From IMG/VR virus record IMGVR_UViG_3300022682_000015, positions 1 through 41,265 of that record: 41,265 nt of DNA; one strand, 5' to 3'. The DNA is from a virus. Position numbers and translations under genes: made by a program. Below are positions 21,722 through 34,026 of this stretch, piece by piece. Within the stretch, counting starts at the first letter, position 1, and each line of letters starts with the position of its first letter. The notes beneath the pieces were generated by a model, which saw only the letters and a program-made list of their open reading frames with translations, ran no database searches and was not told where the DNA came from.

Positions 21722-23749
21722 TTATTCATAGTATGCGCATCCGACTAAGTACATATTAATGTCATGAACTGTAGGCGAAGTTCCTGATGCGTCTTCTTCT
21801 AGATCAAACATCATATTACTATCTACTGGTATCCACAGATAAGTCACTTTATAACTAGAGGCCTCCGTACTGATATAGTCCTCCCCTAGTCCTGTAGCAA
21901 ACAGCAGTTGAGAATCATCGTTTGTATCTATAGTCTCTCCGTGTTTCCCGCCATAAACTGCATAACGGTACGGGTCAGGACCAAAGCCGTTTTCCAATAG
22001 CATTATAACTTTTACATAGATAAAAGTAGTATTAGCAGGTAAGGAGTCTAAGGCAGTCCAAATATGACTAGCCCCGGAACCTGTAGGACCTACAGAAGAG
22101 GTTATACCGCTTATGTTAACAAATACGTTAAAAACTGTGGTGGACATTACAGGATGGCCCGAAGCGTCCCCCATCATTGTTCTTGAAGGGCGTACAGTTT
22201 TCTCTGCGCCAGAACCTAGTTCTATAGAATCGCATGTTATAGCCCCACAATCAAGAGCAGCTAACGTAGATGTTCCTGTTACATCTAGTGTAGTTCCTAT
22301 AGTAAGGCTAGCAGTTAATACCACATCACCAGCAGAGTCAATGGCAAGTTGTTCTGTACTATTTGTATAAAGCCCTAAACTATCAGTCCCTGTGGTCCCT
22401 AACTGCATATCCCCGCCATCGACTATCATGAATGCAGTAGAACCATCGAAATAATGATAGAAATCATCACCCGTACCTAAGTACAGTTTCTTATTGTCAT
22501 CTACGAAGATATCACCCAACCTTTTAGAAGTTGAGCCTAAATCTAAGACGCTGTTTGGATATAATACCCCATCAGCGTCTATAACCCATCTAAGGGTGTC
22601 CGTAGTGTAGAACTCAATATCTTCCGCACCGACTGTACCAAGGAGAAAACCGCCGGTTGCTGTAGTGATGACGAAATCTGACCCATTGAATACCGCTGTA
22701 GCATCGCTATCTGTGCCAAAGTACAGATTAGCAGAGTCGAGCATTATGAAACTATCTATATAGTCTACTGAGAGATTTGTTACATAAATCGTGGAAACAG
22801 GGAGAGTAACGGTTCCTAAGTCTTGTCCGCCCAGAGCAGGGCCTATATTACCGACTGGAACCCAAGCAGTTAGCGTATGGAGATAGATAAGCTCAAGAAA
22901 AGCCCCTTTGGTAACGACTACCGTACCTCCGGTATCCACCCATACTCCGGTTGCCCCGCCATCTATAGTTAAGTTATAGTCGGAGGCATTGTAGAAAGAG
23001 ATACGAAAGAAATCATAAGTTGCATCTACAGCGGGTAAATCAAATTGAGAATCCGCACCAGCCCCACTACCCAAAATGATTGTTTTGCCCCTGTCAGAAT
23101 CTACTACAGTATAGTCAGTAATCCTTAGATTATCATCATAGTTGTCATTGGCAGTTCTTCGCCACCAATCAGGGTTTTCGTCAGGAGTATTACCAGTGTT
23201 CAACGATGCCAAAGAGACATAAATGTCTCCACCGTAGCGGACGTAGTCGTTCACTTCATAGGTAATGTTAGCATTGTAGATATCTGTGAAATCAATTTCT
23301 TCCCAAAACGCGGTTTCAATTACAGGGTTACGATTATCACCAGCCTGCAAAGCGCGGTAATATTTTGTATTGTACACTACAATATCACCGAGAACATAAG
23401 AGGTAGAGTTATCCCATGACTCAAAGCTACCGCCACTCCCGCCGCCCGAGGTAGTGCCTTGAGCAGATACGGGATCAAATAGCTGAATTTGTTCGCCTAC
23501 ATCGGCTTCATCTTCAATATTCTTGGTATAGGAGATAACTCTATAGTCGCCGGTCCCAAATACATTTGGACACCTACCAGCAGCATCTAACTGAACAGGG
23601 TTAGAATTAGGAACTTGATAGTTTTCGTCTGCGTAGGTGTCTTTTAACGTATTATTGAAACCTGGCTGTAGAAATTTCAGCCAACCGTTTTCCAGAGGAT
23701 CACCGGCGTCATCAAAAAATTGAGCAAACGCATGGATTACTCGTCCCAT
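21722..23749 (-). CDS. Tail fibre protein, copy 1
   Basis: 675 residues. N-terminal adsorption domain (about 1-90: FAQFFDDAGDPLENGWLKFL, SNPVQLDAAGRCPNVFGTGD) shared with the fibre at 24756. Then two carbohydrate-binding-like modules with Trp/Tyr (SFESWDNSTSYVLGDIVVYN and YNANITYEVNDYVRYGGDIY), two degenerate beta repeats with LGSTSKRLGDIFVDDNKKLY, and a distinct C-terminus ending GCAYYE. Likely binds the host surface; the C-terminal third is the probable receptor specificity region. The shared N-terminus suggests both fibres attach to the same tail site. Confidence 0.85.
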   Translation of the reverse strand: MGRVIHAFAQFFDDAGDPLENGWLKFLQPGFNNTLKDTYADENYQVPNSNPVQLDAAGRCPNVFGTGDYRVISYTKNIEDEADVGEQIQLFDPVSAQGTTSGGGSGGSFESWDNSTSYVLGDIVVYNTKYYRALQAGDNRNPVIETAFWEEIDFTDIYNANITYEVNDYVRYGGDIYVSLASLNTGNTPDENPDWWRRTANDNYDDNLRITDYTVVDSDRGKTIILGSGAGADSQFDLPAVDATYDFFRISFYNASDYNLTIDGGATGVWVDTGGTVVVTKGAFLELIYLHTLTAWVPVGNIGPALGGQDLGTVTLPVSTIYVTNLSVDYIDSFIMLDSANLYFGTDSDATAVFNGSDFVITTATGGFLLGTVGAEDIEFYTTDTLRWVIDADGVLYPNSVLDLGSTSKRLGDIFVDDNKKLYLGTGDDFYHYFDGSTAFMIVDGGDMQLGTTGTDSLGLYTNSTEQLAIDSAGDVVLTASLTIGTTLDVTGTSTLAALDCGAITCDSIELGSGAEKTVRPSRTMMGDASGHPVMSTTVFNVFVNISGITSSVGPTGSGASHIWTALDSLPANTTFIYVKVIMLLENGFGPDPYRYAVYGGKHGETIDTNDDSQLLFATGLGEDYISTEASSYKVTYLWIPVDSNMMFDLEEDASGTSPTVHDINMYLVGCAYYE

Positions 23750-24755: not shown

Positions 24756-26828
24756 TTAAGGCTTTTGAAAAGTTAAAGTAACAGTAAGACCCTGGGTGCC
24801 CGTACTAATGGCGTCAACATCTATAAAGATCCGGTCACCAGTATTAACATCATCATTAGATGTGTTTATTACGCCGTCAGCGGCGTAGTAAGCAGAAGCA
24901 GAGATAGTTACTTTGGTACTAAGCATATCGGCATCAGTAGAGCTACGAGTTCTACGAACTTGTATATCTGTGGTATTAGCTGATCCTGCTGTGTCTACAG
25001 CAGCCGTGACATCTACAAGATTCCAGCCATTTAATTCAGCAGGTATTGTAATGAAATAGGTACCGTCACCTGTAGCAACAGAAACGTCACTTGCAAAAAC
25101 AGAAATAGCTACATGCTTATATTGACCATCAAGATGGAGGTACGTACCATCCCAATAAATCTCTGCATCTTGATCATCACCAAGATAGTGCTTTCCATTA
25201 TCCGCTTGGTATACATGCTGCACGCCAAGTGTATCTGTGCCTATATTATAGGTGGCATCAGCAGCCGGACCAATGTGTCCTGAGGAATTCATTATCCATC
25301 GATTAGTATTATTTGTGTAGAAATAGATATTTTGGGCTGACTCAGTGCCTACGAATAAATGACTCCCATTATGGTAAATACTGGCGTCTTGATCTGAACC
25401 TAGATAGAATTTACCAGAATTCCCCATGTAGATATTTCTAATTTCGTATGCTGCTGTGCCTATATCATAAGCGTTAGCCGCAAAAGGGTAGATATTTCCT
25501 CCAGCAGCTACAATCCATCGTGCAGTACCTCCAGTGCTAATAGCTATAGTCCCTGTACTACTGTTAATATAAAAATTAGTTCCATCATGGTAAATACTGG
25601 CGTCTTGGTCTGAACCAAAATAGTGCTTGCCGTTATCCCCTTGGTATATATCTTTTAGATTATTAGTAGACTTTCCTAAGCTATAAGTCGTATCATCTTG
25701 AGGGTACATATCCGTTTCGGAAAAAATCCAACGAAAAGCCCCTACAGCATAAAGAGCTATAGCTCCTAATTCACTTTTTAGGTTTACATCTCCAGAGGTT
25801 GCTGAGATGTTGAAATGTGACCCATTAAAAGTGAGATAGGCATCCTGATCGTCGCCTAAATAAAGTCTTTTACTATCCCCTTGGTATATATCACCTGTGT
25901 GTTTTGAAGAGCTCCCTATATCGTAAGTACTAGCAACTTGAGGAATTAAATGTCCTGCGGAAACTACAGACCATCGTATTGTATTATTAGTCCTAAATGT
26001 TAGGTCTGTAGCTACGGTAGTACCTATCCCAAGTACGCCAGTACCATTCAGAATAAACATATTTGAGCCATTATGGTAAATACTGGCGTCTTGGTCACTA
26101 CCTAAGTAGTATTTGCCGTTATCTACTTGATAAATATCGCCAATAAGATTAGTAGGGTCCCCTAAATCATATCCTGTGATATCAGGTACGAAAGATGTAC
26201 CGGACTCAGACCAATTCAGTAAGACAGTTCCTGAGGCAACAGGTTCCCACTTTGTAGGGCTGATATCAGGCTGATTCCCGAGGTTAGACGATACCAAAGA
26301 GAAGTAAATCTTATAGTCATAGTAAACTATTGCAGAATCGTCATATGAGGTATACTCGTCATACTTATTGAAGAACTTAATAGGTTGCCATTTATCCTCA
26401 TTGGTATCAGGAGCGTAGTTCAAATTATCGTCTATAGTAGACTTATAATAGATTCTATTATAGACAACTATATTGTCTTGGTTATACGTAATTGTAGACG
26501 CCCACTCTGAAAAGTAATTCGCGGCAGAAGGGTAAGTATCTTCTGCCGATACTGGATCGGCAGGAACAACCATAGTTCCGGGAGCATGGGTAACAGGGTT
26601 ATTCTCATATAGAACGCATCTGTAAAGACCTATGCCAAAGGCATCTGGACATCTACCAGCAGCATCTAACTGTAAAGGGTTGGAGTTTTTAACAGTTAAT
26701 GCAGCGTCGGCATAAGTATCTTTGTCAGAGTTGTTAGTACCTGAGTTTAGAAAGCGAATCCATCCATTTTCAAGAGGGTCACCGGCATTATCAAAAAACT
26801 GAGCAAAAGCTGGAATTACTCTAGACAT
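24756..26828 (-). CDS. Tail fibre protein, copy 2, with five beta repeats
   Basis: 690 residues. The adsorption domain (1-70) is paralogous to that of the fibre at 21722 (FAQFFDNAGDPLENGWIRFL, LQLDAAGRCPDAFG). Aromatic carbohydrate-binding-like modules at about 105-150 and 155-195. From about 219 to 568, five units of 70-82 residues begin YDIG or TYSLG and carry DIYQGDNGKxYLGSDQDASI-type cores. A beta C-terminal domain (about 570-690) follows. The repeats make a long shaft; copy number could vary by recombination. Probably the second host-binding fibre or the shaft of the same one. Confidence 0.85.
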   Translation of the reverse strand: MSRVIPAFAQFFDNAGDPLENGWIRFLNSGTNNSDKDTYADAALTVKNSNPLQLDAAGRCPDAFGIGLYRCVLYENNPVTHAPGTMVVPADPVSAEDTYPSAANYFSEWASTITYNQDNIVVYNRIYYKSTIDDNLNYAPDTNEDKWQPIKFFNKYDEYTSYDDSAIVYYDYKIYFSLVSSNLGNQPDISPTKWEPVASGTVLLNWSESGTSFVPDITGYDLGDPTNLIGDIYQVDNGKYYLGSDQDASIYHNGSNMFILNGTGVLGIGTTVATDLTFRTNNTIRWSVVSAGHLIPQVASTYDIGSSSKHTGDIYQGDSKRLYLGDDQDAYLTFNGSHFNISATSGDVNLKSELGAIALYAVGAFRWIFSETDMYPQDDTTYSLGKSTNNLKDIYQGDNGKHYFGSDQDASIYHDGTNFYINSSTGTIAISTGGTARWIVAAGGNIYPFAANAYDIGTAAYEIRNIYMGNSGKFYLGSDQDASIYHNGSHLFVGTESAQNIYFYTNNTNRWIMNSSGHIGPAADATYNIGTDTLGVQHVYQADNGKHYLGDDQDAEIYWDGTYLHLDGQYKHVAISVFASDVSVATGDGTYFITIPAELNGWNLVDVTAAVDTAGSANTTDIQVRRTRSSTDADMLSTKVTISASAYYAADGVINTSNDDVNTGDRIFIDVDAISTGTQGLTVTLTFQKP

Positions 26829-29880: not shown

Positions 29881-31470
29881 TTATTTTTTAGGAGGTTTAT
29901 AACCCATTGCGTATCCGGCTAAGTCGCCTACACTTTTAATCGTATCGCCTGCTGCTTGATACATACCAGCTTGACCTACACCTTGTGCCAGCCCGGCATC
30001 CGCTGTTAATTGGGCTGTTTGAGTTCCTGTTTGTGTGGCGAGGTTAGCTAAAGTAGTGGCTAACTGTTGCTCTGATTGTAGCTTATTAGTGGCGAATCTT
30101 TCCATTAGCGCGGAAGCCCGATTTACACCCTCTTTGTAATTGCTAGTATATTTATCGCCATATCTTTCAAGCATCCCAGATCGAGCCATATTTATCTGAG
30201 TATTAATGTCTGCCAAAGAAAGCCCAGTACTTTGTGCTAACTGCGCTCTTTGCTGTGCAGTCATCTGAGTTAGATCAGCGCCGCGTACACCGAGTTGTTC
30301 AGCAAGAGAAGCAAGTTGGGTAGCTGCTCTTTCTTGAGTACCTGCCACTTGCTGGCCTGTCGTAGAGATTAGACCAGCACCAGTAGTATCTGCCGACTGT
30401 CCTCTCGTAGCAAGATTTCGTAGGTTTTCCATGTACTGCTGTTGCTGCCCTGCTGAGATGCCTATCGCTTGCTCCATCAAAGCAGAACGCACTTTACCAC
30501 CACCAAGTCCACCGATAGCAGCGTTATTACGCAACAAAGCTTTTTCTGCTCTCTCCCTTAAATACTTTTGACCGGGGGATTCCATAAATTCGTTTTGCGC
30601 TTGTTGCTGTGCTTCAGGACCAAGAGCGCCAGAAAGAGCAGCTTCACGCATTTGAGCTTGTCTTCCAGTATCCGTATAAGGCTGGAGTCTACCTAAAGCC
30701 TCGTCCCTTGCACCATACAGAGTATTTTGAGCGGATTGTTGACCAGTTATTACGTCTGATCTAGCTTGATTTGTACCTGCTGCAAGTTCTCCTAAGCCCC
30801 CTGCAAGCCCTTCTTTTAACCTAGCATCAGAACCATAAAAACCAGATTCTGAACCAGACGTAGCAGTTGCTGGTACGTAAGCACCATTAGCAGCTTGAGC
30901 CGTATTAATAGTCTGAGGCTGTCCTTGAGGCTGTCCTTGAGGCTGTCCCTGGGGTTGCGCTTGAAGAGACCCTTGAGGCGCAGTTTGACTTAATACTTGA
31001 GGATTAGTTTGCTGTACAGCCTGGTATACTTGAGGCATAGCCTGCTGAAGGGCCTGATTTCTTTGCTCAGGCGGCAGAGACTGAATTTGTGTCCATTGCT
31101 GATCGAACTGTGCCTTAGGAATACCTTGCGCCCCAGCAGAAGCACCTAAGATCATTTTATGAGCATCAGCACCAGTTTGGCCCATAAACTTATTTATCAT
31201 ATCAGCATGAGTCGTCATCAAGATAGCAGCATTAGTCGTACCCTGAGTAATATGCTGACCTAACTGGCCTACTATAGTTCGGTACTCTGCCATAGCGGGG
31301 CCATAACGATCAAGGATCTCTTGCCGAGCTTGGGTCGCTCTGGCATCAATCATAGCCGCTGCGTCTTTTTGAGCATCTGCTGTGGTTTCAGCACTTTTCT
31401 TAGCCCCATAGGCCGATATAGCCCCACCTACTACGGTCCCTGCTACTACTGCTGTTACTGCTGAGGACAT
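29881..31470 (-). CDS. DNA-transfer/ejection protein, gp7-like (529 aa)
   Basis: N-terminus MSSAVTAVVAGTVVGGAISA is a hydrophobic Gly/Ala segment, then a Gln-rich helical body. A QPQG repeat (about residues 173-186) is coded by 12-base units near 30910-30955. Later parts repeat Gln/Thr/Ala-rich helices (TGQQVAGTQERAATQLASLA, LTQMTAQQRAQLAQSTGLSL). Composition and position directly after the neck genes match P22 gene 7 type transfer proteins. Confidence 0.7.
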   Translation of the reverse strand: MSSAVTAVVAGTVVGGAISAYGAKKSAETTADAQKDAAAMIDARATQARQEILDRYGPAMAEYRTIVGQLGQHITQGTTNAAILMTTHADMINKFMGQTGADAHKMILGASAGAQGIPKAQFDQQWTQIQSLPPEQRNQALQQAMPQVYQAVQQTNPQVLSQTAPQGSLQAQPQGQPQGQPQGQPQTINTAQAANGAYVPATATSGSESGFYGSDARLKEGLAGGLGELAAGTNQARSDVITGQQSAQNTLYGARDEALGRLQPYTDTGRQAQMREAALSGALGPEAQQQAQNEFMESPGQKYLRERAEKALLRNNAAIGGLGGGKVRSALMEQAIGISAGQQQQYMENLRNLATRGQSADTTGAGLISTTGQQVAGTQERAATQLASLAEQLGVRGADLTQMTAQQRAQLAQSTGLSLADINTQINMARSGMLERYGDKYTSNYKEGVNRASALMERFATNKLQSEQQLATTLANLATQTGTQTAQLTADAGLAQGVGQAGMYQAAGDTIKSVGDLAGYAMGYKPPKK

Positions 31471-31473
31471 AGC

Positions 31474-32313
31474 TTATACCCCGCTATTGTGTAATTTCAA
31501 GGCTTCTCTGTAGTCTATAGTAATTTCATTACCTATGATTCCTGCCTTAGATCCAGTTATAACTTTAATCGCTATGAGAGCTACGTCACCGTTACTAAGT
31601 TTAACAAACTTAGCATTAGGATTAGCTCCGTGATTAGTATATCTTCCGGCAGGGGTTTTATGTTTATTTAACAAAGCATAAGCGATAAAGTCGCCTGGCT
31701 TAAAAGGCGCTGTAGCAAATAATCCTTTTCCATGAATAGGCGAAGAGAAAACAGAAACAGAGTACGAGCCACTAGGGAACTCAATATTGTAAGGGTAAGC
31801 ATCCATGTCTTTCTGTATAATCTCTTCTGTAAGATTATACTCTTCCAAGAAAGCTTGAAAGTCTTCTTGGTCTGACTTACCTGAGTTTAACATATTAATT
31901 TCAGCTAATTCTTCCTCTGTCCAAGCGTCATCTTTATCGAGAAATATTTCTTCTATCTTCTCAACAGAAGTTTCATTCGTAGGGTAGACGTTTAACCACA
32001 CCATATCTTCTATAACGTGACCAACTTTACGGCCAGGGTTGCCCGTAAAGATCATGGGGGCTTCAAGAGTTTTTACTTCTCCGTTTATCACCATTGTTAC
32101 TTTACCTTTCAGGAAAATATTCAAGTGGTGAAATTTCTGTTTAAAACCTATTAAAACGGTATCAGCAGGAACATTCAACTCTCTCACATATAAGCCGGGG
32201 CTAAAATGATGGTACAAAGGGCATTCTACTTGCGCCTCTTTCTTGCAAATATCAAGAAGTTTCTCTACGCTAAGATCCTTCATTACGCCTATAACTTCAA
32301 GTTGACTATCCAA
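31474..32313 (-). CDS. Cupin-SET fusion, putative protein-lysine methyltransferase
   Basis: 279 residues. Residues about 35-125 form a cupin: FHHLNIFLKGKVTMVINGEV with His62/His63 in the first motif and VGHVIEDMVWLNVY in the second. An acidic helical linker follows (125-175). Residues about 184-272 read as a SET domain: SSPIHGKGLFA (194-200, SAM-loop glycines), RYTNHGANPNA (224-234, NHxxxPN) and GNEITIDYREAL (261-272, with Tyr268 in the position of the catalytic tyrosine). No pre-SET or post-SET Cys clusters. SET enzymes methylate Lys in proteins; the target here is unknown. Cupin proteins of this type are common among phage structural genes; the SET fusion is less usual. Overlaps the upstream gene by 8 bases, so it is made late with virion proteins. 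Confidence 0.8.
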   Translation of the reverse strand: MDSQLEVIGVMKDLSVEKLLDICKKEAQVECPLYHHFSPGLYVRELNVPADTVLIGFKQKFHHLNIFLKGKVTMVINGEVKTLEAPMIFTGNPGRKVGHVIEDMVWLNVYPTNETSVEKIEEIFLDKDDAWTEEELAEINMLNSGKSDQEDFQAFLEEYNLTEEIIQKDMDAYPYNIEFPSGSYSVSVFSSPIHGKGLFATAPFKPGDFIAYALLNKHKTPAGRYTNHGANPNAKFVKLSNGDVALIAIKVITGSKAGIIGNEITIDYREALKLHNSGV

Positions 32314-32572
32314 TTGCTACCCAACCTTTCTTGGTGTCGTCACCAATAGAAGTTTTTTGTTTAATATATAAAACAGCCCCGGCGGCTCCTTCATCATCCA
32401 TATACTCTGTTCCCTGATTAGCCTCTACTACGCCTTCAGGTGATCCTGTTCCTATGATTAACCCTCTTTCATATACCTGAGACATCCAAAAATTGAAAAG
32501 GTTAGAAACTACGCCATTTTCATTACTAACTAACGGGATTACAGGATCATACTTTGCAATAGTTCTTCTCAT
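32306..32572 (-). CDS. Small virion/tail protein (88 aa)
   Basis: C-terminal half GVVEANQGTEYMDDEGAAGAVLYIKQKTSI followed by GDDTKKGWVAIG matches, by pattern, the short phage module (Gly-x-Tyr-x-Asp-Gly-Ala ... Gly-Trp-x-Ala) placed in tail or collar fibres. Helical N-terminus. Overlaps neighbours at both ends (four bases with the gp10-like gene). Likely a tail or collar component. Confidence 0.65.
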   Translation of the reverse strand: MRRTIAKYDPVIPLVSNENGVVSNLFNFWMSQVYERGLIIGTGSPEGVVEANQGTEYMDDEGAAGAVLYIKQKTSIGDDTKKGWVAIG

Positions 32573-34026
32573 ATTGCTAAAAACTCCAGTTTAATGAAAA
32601 CAGGCTTTACGGCATCTGACAATCTAAATCTGAGGTATACAAAACGTGGAATACGTCCGTTCTTACGCCAGACAATACGACGATTATATTGACCTACTTT
32701 ACCTATTCGCCTTGAGCGTTCATAGGTAAAAAGCTTACCATCTTTTGACATAGCCATGGTAACTACAGGATCAGGTGCATCAGAATTACCTACTCCTGAT
32801 TCCATAGTTAATTCAATGATAGGTAGCCTAAATGAAGCGCCACCATTACTAATAGGTTGGGGCACAAAGGTTCTAATAATATCGTTGTCATATTCTTTTC
32901 TTGTGTTTGCATCAAGTTTACCTATTCTCCCGTCTTGGCTATCGCCGACTAGGGTATAACCGTAAGCCGTTGCCAAAGAAACTACTCTCCACGTATGTTG
33001 CTGCAAGTCTCCATTAGTGTCTGCAATTCCAGACTTCTGTTCATGCCATAGTCCAGTTGAGATATTATAGACGAAGGCTCGATCAGTGAAAACGAAAGCA
33101 ACGAAGTACTGTCCCTTTTGATTCCACGCAAGGCTGAATGCTGCGCCAATAGTAGTATTAGAGTAATTATTAAGTACACTATCAATAGGAGTAGTAGATA
33201 TTTTAGAAAATGCGCCTCCTTGGAACATCCATATAGCAGCTCTTTCATCTTTTCCTCCTCCGATCATAAAGACTTTTTCGTTAGTCGCTATCAACGAAGC
33301 AGGAGCAAAGCAACCCTTATCATAGAACTGATTGCTTCTTTGGAATGGGAAGTCAGCGCCACCAATGTTTTGGAAGCCCTCAGTCGTTTCTGAACCGGTA
33401 AGATAAATCTGATTTCTGTATACTACAGGAGCAACAATATCATCAGGATCAGATTCAGCAGAACCAAAGTCAAGAGCATTCCAATCTGTACCATCATTAA
33501 GCGCGGAAATAATCCACTTCTTACTATCAGTAGAACAAGCAAAAAAGCCGTCAATATAAACGACATACTGAGGATTACCGTTGGCTGTAAAATCAGCATC
33601 AGATATTTCTACTAAGCCTCCTACTGTAGTGTAGATGTACCCGGCCCCTCCAGGAACAAGTATCATGAGTTGGGTACCATTGTCCGCCATAGATACTCTT
33701 CCACTACCCGCCACGGTTCCTAAAGAGGTATACGACCACGTTTCTACACCAGCCGTAATAGTCATTTCTACTTTATACAATGTTGTACCGTTAACGAAAT
33801 AAGGAACCCCATCAAGAACCCAGGACCCACGATTGGCATCAGTCGCCAAAGAGCCAGTAGTAAGGATTGAAATAATACCAGGAGTACCTACTAAGACTCT
33901 TTGAGACAAACCCGGAACTTCTACGCCAATAGGCACAAGATTTACGCACTCTTGATGAGATAGTGGCAGAGAGTCCGACACATAAAAGCCGTTACTAATG
34001 GGTATTTCAGCTAAAGGTGGCTGCAT
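32569..34026 (-). CDS. Packaged-DNA stabilisation protein, P22 gp10-like tail hub
   Basis: 485 residues. The N-terminus (PPLAEIPISNGFYVSDSLPL, HQECVNLVPIGVEVPG) and the body, a series of short beta blades with repeated Gly-Trp/aromatic patterns (GSWVLDGVPYFVNGTTLYKV, KWIISALNDGTDWNALDFGS), follow the P22 gp10 family, the hub that closes the portal after packaging. Length matches P22 gp10 (about 470). Position after gp4-like gene and spike agrees. Confidence 0.85.
   Translation of the reverse strand: MQPPLAEIPISNGFYVSDSLPLSHQECVNLVPIGVEVPGLSQRVLVGTPGIISILTTGSLATDANRGSWVLDGVPYFVNGTTLYKVEMTITAGVETWSYTSLGTVAGSGRVSMADNGTQLMILVPGGAGYIYTTVGGLVEISDADFTANGNPQYVVYIDGFFACSTDSKKWIISALNDGTDWNALDFGSAESDPDDIVAPVVYRNQIYLTGSETTEGFQNIGGADFPFQRSNQFYDKGCFAPASLIATNEKVFMIGGGKDERAAIWMFQGGAFSKISTTPIDSVLNNYSNTTIGAAFSLAWNQKGQYFVAFVFTDRAFVYNISTGLWHEQKSGIADTNGDLQQHTWRVVSLATAYGYTLVGDSQDGRIGKLDANTRKEYDNDIIRTFVPQPISNGGASFRLPIIELTMESGVGNSDAPDPVVTMAMSKDGKLFTYERSRRIGKVGQYNRRIVWRKNGRIPRFVYLRFRLSDAVKPVFIKLEFLAI

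Follow-up and report, generated by a model that had tools for sequence, protein, structure and literature searches.

SET domains are best known from histone-marking enzymes, and the enzymes that carry them are known for acting on protein lysine. To our knowledge, protein methylation by SET domains has been studied almost wholly in eukaryotes, together with a few bacterial effectors. A viral case is vSET of PBCV-1 (A612L; PDB 1n3j and 3kma), a small virus-encoded SET domain with the GxG, NH and terminal Tyr motifs, all of which it shares with the phage protein described here. As far as we know, the solubility of phage ejection proteins and their loading into the head are still an open problem. 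In T7 and P22, the slot that immediately precedes the first ejection protein is filled by small late proteins, gp13 and gp14, respectively, which are annotated as internal virion or head morphogenesis proteins. In the cobavirus study, a GNAT beside the internal virion proteins was placed where T7 has gp13, and the authors cited a morphogenesis role of gp13 as suggested (PMC6775973). In a T7-like phage, gp13 is not named in the text list of detected virion proteins (PMC4517105). Literature backing for a morphogenetic function of this slot is of an indirect kind. In this study, we analysed a viral DNA stretch of 41,265 nucleotides (IMG/VR record IMGVR_UViG_3300022682_000015; hereafter, the window), in which a late gene encodes a cupin fused to a SET domain.

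Domain layout and identity of the SET half

The cupin-SET gene (31474..32313, minus strand) is an ORF of 279 aa with a TTG start, and an alternative in-frame ATG at 32283 would give a product of 269 aa. Inspection by eye revealed no clear ribosome site for either start, and the plus strand across 31474-32313 is closed by many stops. The full-length model (pLDDT 90.4, pTM 0.85) comprises three parts on the minus strand: a cupin domain at 31936..32247 (about residues 23-126), supported by Foldseek and cupin homologues; a linker at 31765..31935 (about residues 127-183), helical in the models; and a SET domain with a very short SET-I at 31489..31764 (about residues 184-275), supported by PF00856, the PDB profile search and Foldseek. 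The preliminary description, which named no strand, had read this ORF as a cupin fused to a SET domain, and Pfam, the PDB profile search and the fold models bear this reading out. It had also listed three SET landmarks, all of which are present in the order given: HGKGLFA, the SAM-binding GxG motif (31714..31734, residues 194-200); RYTNHGANPNA, the NH..PN motif of SET domains (31612..31644, residues 224-234); and GNEITIDY, which holds the catalytic-type Tyr268 (31510..31533, residues 261-268). The PHROG family phrog_34170 covers cupin, linker and SET alike, aligning residues 22-273 of the window protein with profile positions 26-280 of 296 (E=1.4e-65).

Several independent searches assign the C-terminal half to the SET fold. 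The HMM search suggested at the outset matched Pfam SET PF00856 above its curated cut-off (22.9 bits, cut-off 22.4, E=1.1e-4), and stand-alone SET relatives score 35 bits with the same model. When a 44-member profile of the family was compared with PDB sequences, it matched the SET domain of MLL1 in two stretches, SET-N and SET-C (E=8e-10), and vSET with E=3e-6. Modelled alone, the SET half reached a pLDDT of 89.5, and the predicted structure matched SET folds in Foldseek, a comparison that the preliminary description had proposed: MLL1 SET with E=3.3e-6 and probability 1.0, vSET with E=1e-5 and TMt 0.62, and the SET domains of ASH1L, NSD and EZH2. This model gave 209 PDB matches at E<=0.001, and the matches listed are all SET enzymes. 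Profile, fold and conservation together rule out a chance motif as the source of the landmarks.

A peculiarity of the domain is its SET-I segment, which has 11 residues in the window protein versus about 46 in MLL1; the corresponding region counts about 13 residues when set against the roughly 31 of vSET. In characterised SET enzymes, SET-I forms part of the substrate groove and helps to bind the peptide, and its size differs widely across SET proteins. Hence, the short SET-I weakens any specific substrate model, not the membership of the domain in the SET family.

Residue conservation was assessed in 49 relatives with less than 80% mutual identity. S191, G195, G197, T220, G223, N227, P232, E263 and Y268 are invariant in all of them, and H228 is kept in 48. 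In a wider set, 86 of 95 sequences carry a strict pattern, while the others mostly deviate in spacing or adjacent letters and still have the NH and the Tyr. An enzyme would be expected to show such a pattern of retained residues. At three sites that are otherwise mostly conserved, the window protein differs from the consensus of the family: L214, K219 and G229 (mostly Ser/Ala elsewhere). The preliminary description would have been contradicted by an absent SET fold or by the loss of the SAM-binding and catalytic residues; the predicted fold is there and the residues are kept, which makes methyltransferase activity likely. The SET fold and its likely activity are well supported, and judged from sequence and model the domain very likely functions as a methyltransferase.

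Most members of the family carry an inserted 'GCxGG' loop immediately ahead of the catalytic strand (31531-31554 in the window, residues 254-261), and about half of the cupin-SET members end in a C-terminal Cys, often as 'CQ'. A divergent, PH1-like branch is devoid of the loop, and the window protein has neither Cys. We considered a Cys pair resembling a post-SET element and rejected it: the loop Cys occurs in 37/49 sequences and the tail Cys in 24/49, and the two are not linked to each other (both in 19, loop only in 18, tail only in 5, neither in 7).

The cupin slot before the ejection protein

The cupin-SET family is common to hundreds of environmental phages and is not unique to the window phage. 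A first scan of IMG/VR recovered at least 472 loci encoding a relative, and we read the 80 best of these. Among cultured phages, Rhodoferax P26218 and Pseudoalteromonas PH1 carry the gene, and it is also found in the zth2-2 record and in Manatee Spring phage genomes. Nine further loci come from bacterial assemblies, several of which are probably phage contigs or prophages. A few relatives already bear automatic SET labels (UOF81456.1, A0A6J5PTS6), and phrog_34170 is placed in the PHROG category of unknown function. We found no experimental study of phage cupin-SET proteins in the literature searched, which lay mostly outside subscription journals. The family as such is already in the databases; the new parts are its slot, the optional nature of SET and the parallel with GNAT.

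In the window, the gene order is a head closure Hc3/gp10-like hub (32569..34026, minus; phrog_578, E=3.5e-108), an 88-aa gene that overlaps the TTG start of cupin-SET and has weak PHROG matches only (32306..32572, minus), cupin-SET, and the first DNA-ejection protein, which is gp7/gp14-like (29881..31470, minus; phrog_598 'DNA ejection', E=6e-9). The location between a gp10-like hub and the ejection proteins had been correctly recognised from the letters of the window. The ejection-protein gene begins 3 bases downstream of cupin-SET and is a constant neighbour across the family. According to an automatic rule, a hydrophobic MS(G)(I/V)ATA start is present in the downstream product at 59 of 62 cupin-SET loci; of the three that fail the rule, two miss it narrowly and one is an ORF called wrongly. 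Representative downstream proteins match DNA-ejection families in PHROG. As possible targets of methylation, the preliminary description had proposed the adjacent Lys-rich or coat proteins, or a host protein. Residues 1-70 of the first ejection protein showed no conserved lysine (best column, 20 of 60 relatives), so the N-terminus of this protein gains no sequence support as a target. Elsewhere in the late arm of the window, a 675-aa protein (21722-23749, minus) has weak matches to tail fibres along with a CBM_5_12 carbohydrate-binding module, and a 690-aa protein at 24756-26828 has family matches in common with it.

The N-terminal half of the model matches many PDB cupins in Foldseek (E near 1e-5, probability 1.0), and its predicted double-stranded beta-helix agrees with the cupin identity proposed beforehand. 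This half is homologous to the stand-alone phage cupins of phrog_24280 and phrog_12032. Some typical cupin positions are kept (H63 and N65 in 46/49 relatives), H35 is kept in 48/49, and a metal-binding His/Glu set like that of enzymatic cupins would be a candidate feature of this half. The same slot is occupied by SET-less cupin genes in three Vibrio phages (VvAW1, VPMS1 and 234P9), a T7-like Sphaerotilus phage, a Glaciimonas prophage and dozens of contigs. In one further search, 67 of 78 cupin loci were devoid of SET; methylation therefore cannot be a general requirement of the slot, in which the cupin is constant and SET optional. In P22-, T7- and BPP-1-like phages, the cupin precedes a hydrophobic 'MS(G)xATA..' protein, which is usually the first DNA-ejection protein. 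As a practical matter, the cupin marks the gene before an MS-start, Gly/Ala-rich hydrophobic protein (loci L304-L381) and could be used to flag ejection genes in unannotated short-tailed phages.

SET as an optional module and the GNAT parallel

Well-supported branches of the cupin tree imply a minimum of three gains or losses of SET, and parsimony implies seven; the tree is weak and has few columns. Two loci illustrate the modularity of the protein. In Paraburkholderia ferrariae (L096:7668-9115), cupin and SET are two overlapping genes, close to replication-like genes and an integrase and not to head genes. In another locus (L095), SET and the helical linker stand alone, upstream of a protein with a hydrophobic start. 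The profile alignment of the latter begins inside the linker, and the linker is also present in the stand-alone SET gene of L096; the helical linker thus travels with the SET domain. No stand-alone SET relatives were found in viral contigs.

In BPP-1, the order is a GNAT (Bbp24), the cupin (Bbp23) and an MSG-start protein (Bbp22). Bbp22 has no confident PHROG match, and an ejection-protein name for it would have to be inferred. Across BPP-1-type loci (L224-L303 and L006), GNAT is present in 77/81 and SET in 0/81; GNAT mostly lies directly upstream of the cupin and overlaps its start, and Pfam confirms it in 42 of 47 upstream neighbours. Among SET loci, GNAT occurs in only 3 of 94 (L080, L003 and L028), and this mutual exclusion largely corresponds to one split between the two main cupin clades, so that the counts are not independent. 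The three loci differ in their order: GNAT, cupin-SET and an MS-start protein follow one another in L080:2371-3782, and GNAT comes after a short MSA-start protein in L003:5893-7539 and L028:5938-7588. In the window, no GNAT profile matched the cupin-SET protein or any other part of the stretch.

Proposed role, rival readings and known counterparts

The reading that we favour, with a probability of roughly 0.45, is that of a cupin-anchored protein methyltransferase that acts on the ejection module during assembly. The protein would transfer methyl groups from SAM to a protein substrate, most likely to lysine. Its cupin would belong to the assembly slot of the ejection proteins and hold a minimal SET domain. 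In the infected cell, the cupin half may bind the ejection-protein module soon after its synthesis. Lysines of an ejection protein or of another late protein would then be methylated by the SET half, before or during capsid packing. An ejection protein is suggested as the partner by its constant place downstream. In relatives, a GNAT beside the cupin, or the cupin alone, seems to serve in the same capacity. What the analysis shows directly is the two folds, the retained catalytic residues, the fixed gene position and the optional, exchangeable character of the enzyme; its activity, lysine as acceptor, ejection proteins as substrate and the timing are inferred. More tentatively, short-tailed phages might keep a cupin morphogenesis protein onto which SET or a neighbouring GNAT is plugged, marking the ejection proteins before packaging; we regard this wider scheme as possible and somewhat doubtful.

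An active SET methyltransferase could also be aimed at a host protein, for instance of the envelope, transcription or defence, and be made late or injected. The patchy, optional occurrence of SET is typical of accessory host-interaction genes, and the two-gene form of P. ferrariae, away from head genes, leaves some room for such a role. Moreover, a host-directed role has been proposed for phage GNATs that lie next to internal virion proteins, those of marine podoviruses being read as regulators of host metabolism (PMC6918029). However, the near-constant slot before the ejection protein and the slot-specific cupin fusion point to a local partner, and we consider a host target unlikely. It is more improbable still that the SET fold is a non-enzymatic beta-clip module, such as an assembly or binding domain. 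This idea would fit the very short SET-I and the off-consensus L214, K219 and G229 of the window protein, but the SAM-binding and catalytic residues are among the most conserved in relatives only 25-51% identical to it, and a structural module would not retain NH..PN and the terminal Tyr.

Many cupins are metal enzymes, and the conservation of some typical cupin positions (H63, N65) could be taken to indicate a second catalytic domain and a non-protein substrate, that is, a small molecule or the phage DNA or RNA. Against this, SET enzymes are associated with protein lysine, and SET-linked, GNAT-linked and free cupins all occupy the slot with no metabolic gene beside them; such a substrate is very improbable. 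Equally remote is a tail fibre or adhesin, a reading that derives from database labels of cupin relatives ('short tail fiber protein', 'tail fiber adhesin'), among them the PHROG names of phrog_24280 and phrog_12032. The cupin has about 120 aa, its compact model shows no fibre shape, and the gene is grouped with ejection genes and not with tailspikes. In Ralstonia phage phiAP1, the 'short tail fiber' label arose from an RmlC-like cupin match, with no validation (PMC8703784). We traced the label of the cupin at least in part to this annotation and, on the basis of gene context and of this origin, rejected the fibre identity as a label transfer; the 'tail fiber' labels on the cupin family are probably wrong.

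If SET or GNAT enzymes plugged onto the cupin do mark ejection proteins in short-tailed phages, phage assembly would include a post-translational modification that has gone unrecognised. The widespread occurrence of a phage SET family beside envelope-crossing proteins leads to the prediction that methyl-lysine is present on ejection or other late proteins. This prediction is testable now, as Rhodoferax P26218 and Pseudoalteromonas PH1 are in culture, and cupins with SET, with GNAT or alone offer a natural comparison.

Compared with known systems, the likeness to T7 gp13 and P22 gp14 is one of position: sequence comparison relates neither of these proteins to cupin, SET or GNAT, and the window protein matches neither of their families (PF11090, PF11039). 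Both were also tried as hidden GNATs. Pfam gave no support for either of them, nor did PDB-sequence or hhalign comparisons for gp13, whose profile is shallow (Neff 2.2), so that this negative does not speak against a relation; the best 80 IMG/VR relatives of gp14 are all at least 94% identical and useless as a profile. The notion of a slot for modifying enzymes therefore draws on the cupin phages only. Among SET proteins, MLL1/KMT2 (e.g., 7w67, 6u9m) is the best match in both sequence and fold, with SET-N and SET-C aligned. Unlike MLL1, the phage protein has neither most of the SET-I nor the MLL1 partners, and the 'GCxGG' loop of most phage members is a further difference. vSET, after which the cupin-SET relative UOF81456.1 is labelled, comes from an algal virus, stands alone and has eukaryotic histone H3 as its substrate, whereas cupin-SET is fused to a cupin and encoded by a phage, where no histone is available, and its SET-I is even shorter. 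The stand-alone phage cupins (PHA00672 superfamily; VvAW1 gp04, BPP-1 Bbp23) have a homologous cupin in the same slot, without SET. Finally, phrog_34170, exemplified by Pseudoalteromonas phage PH1, has the identical cupin-helix-SET order, and the window sequence is a divergent member of this family.
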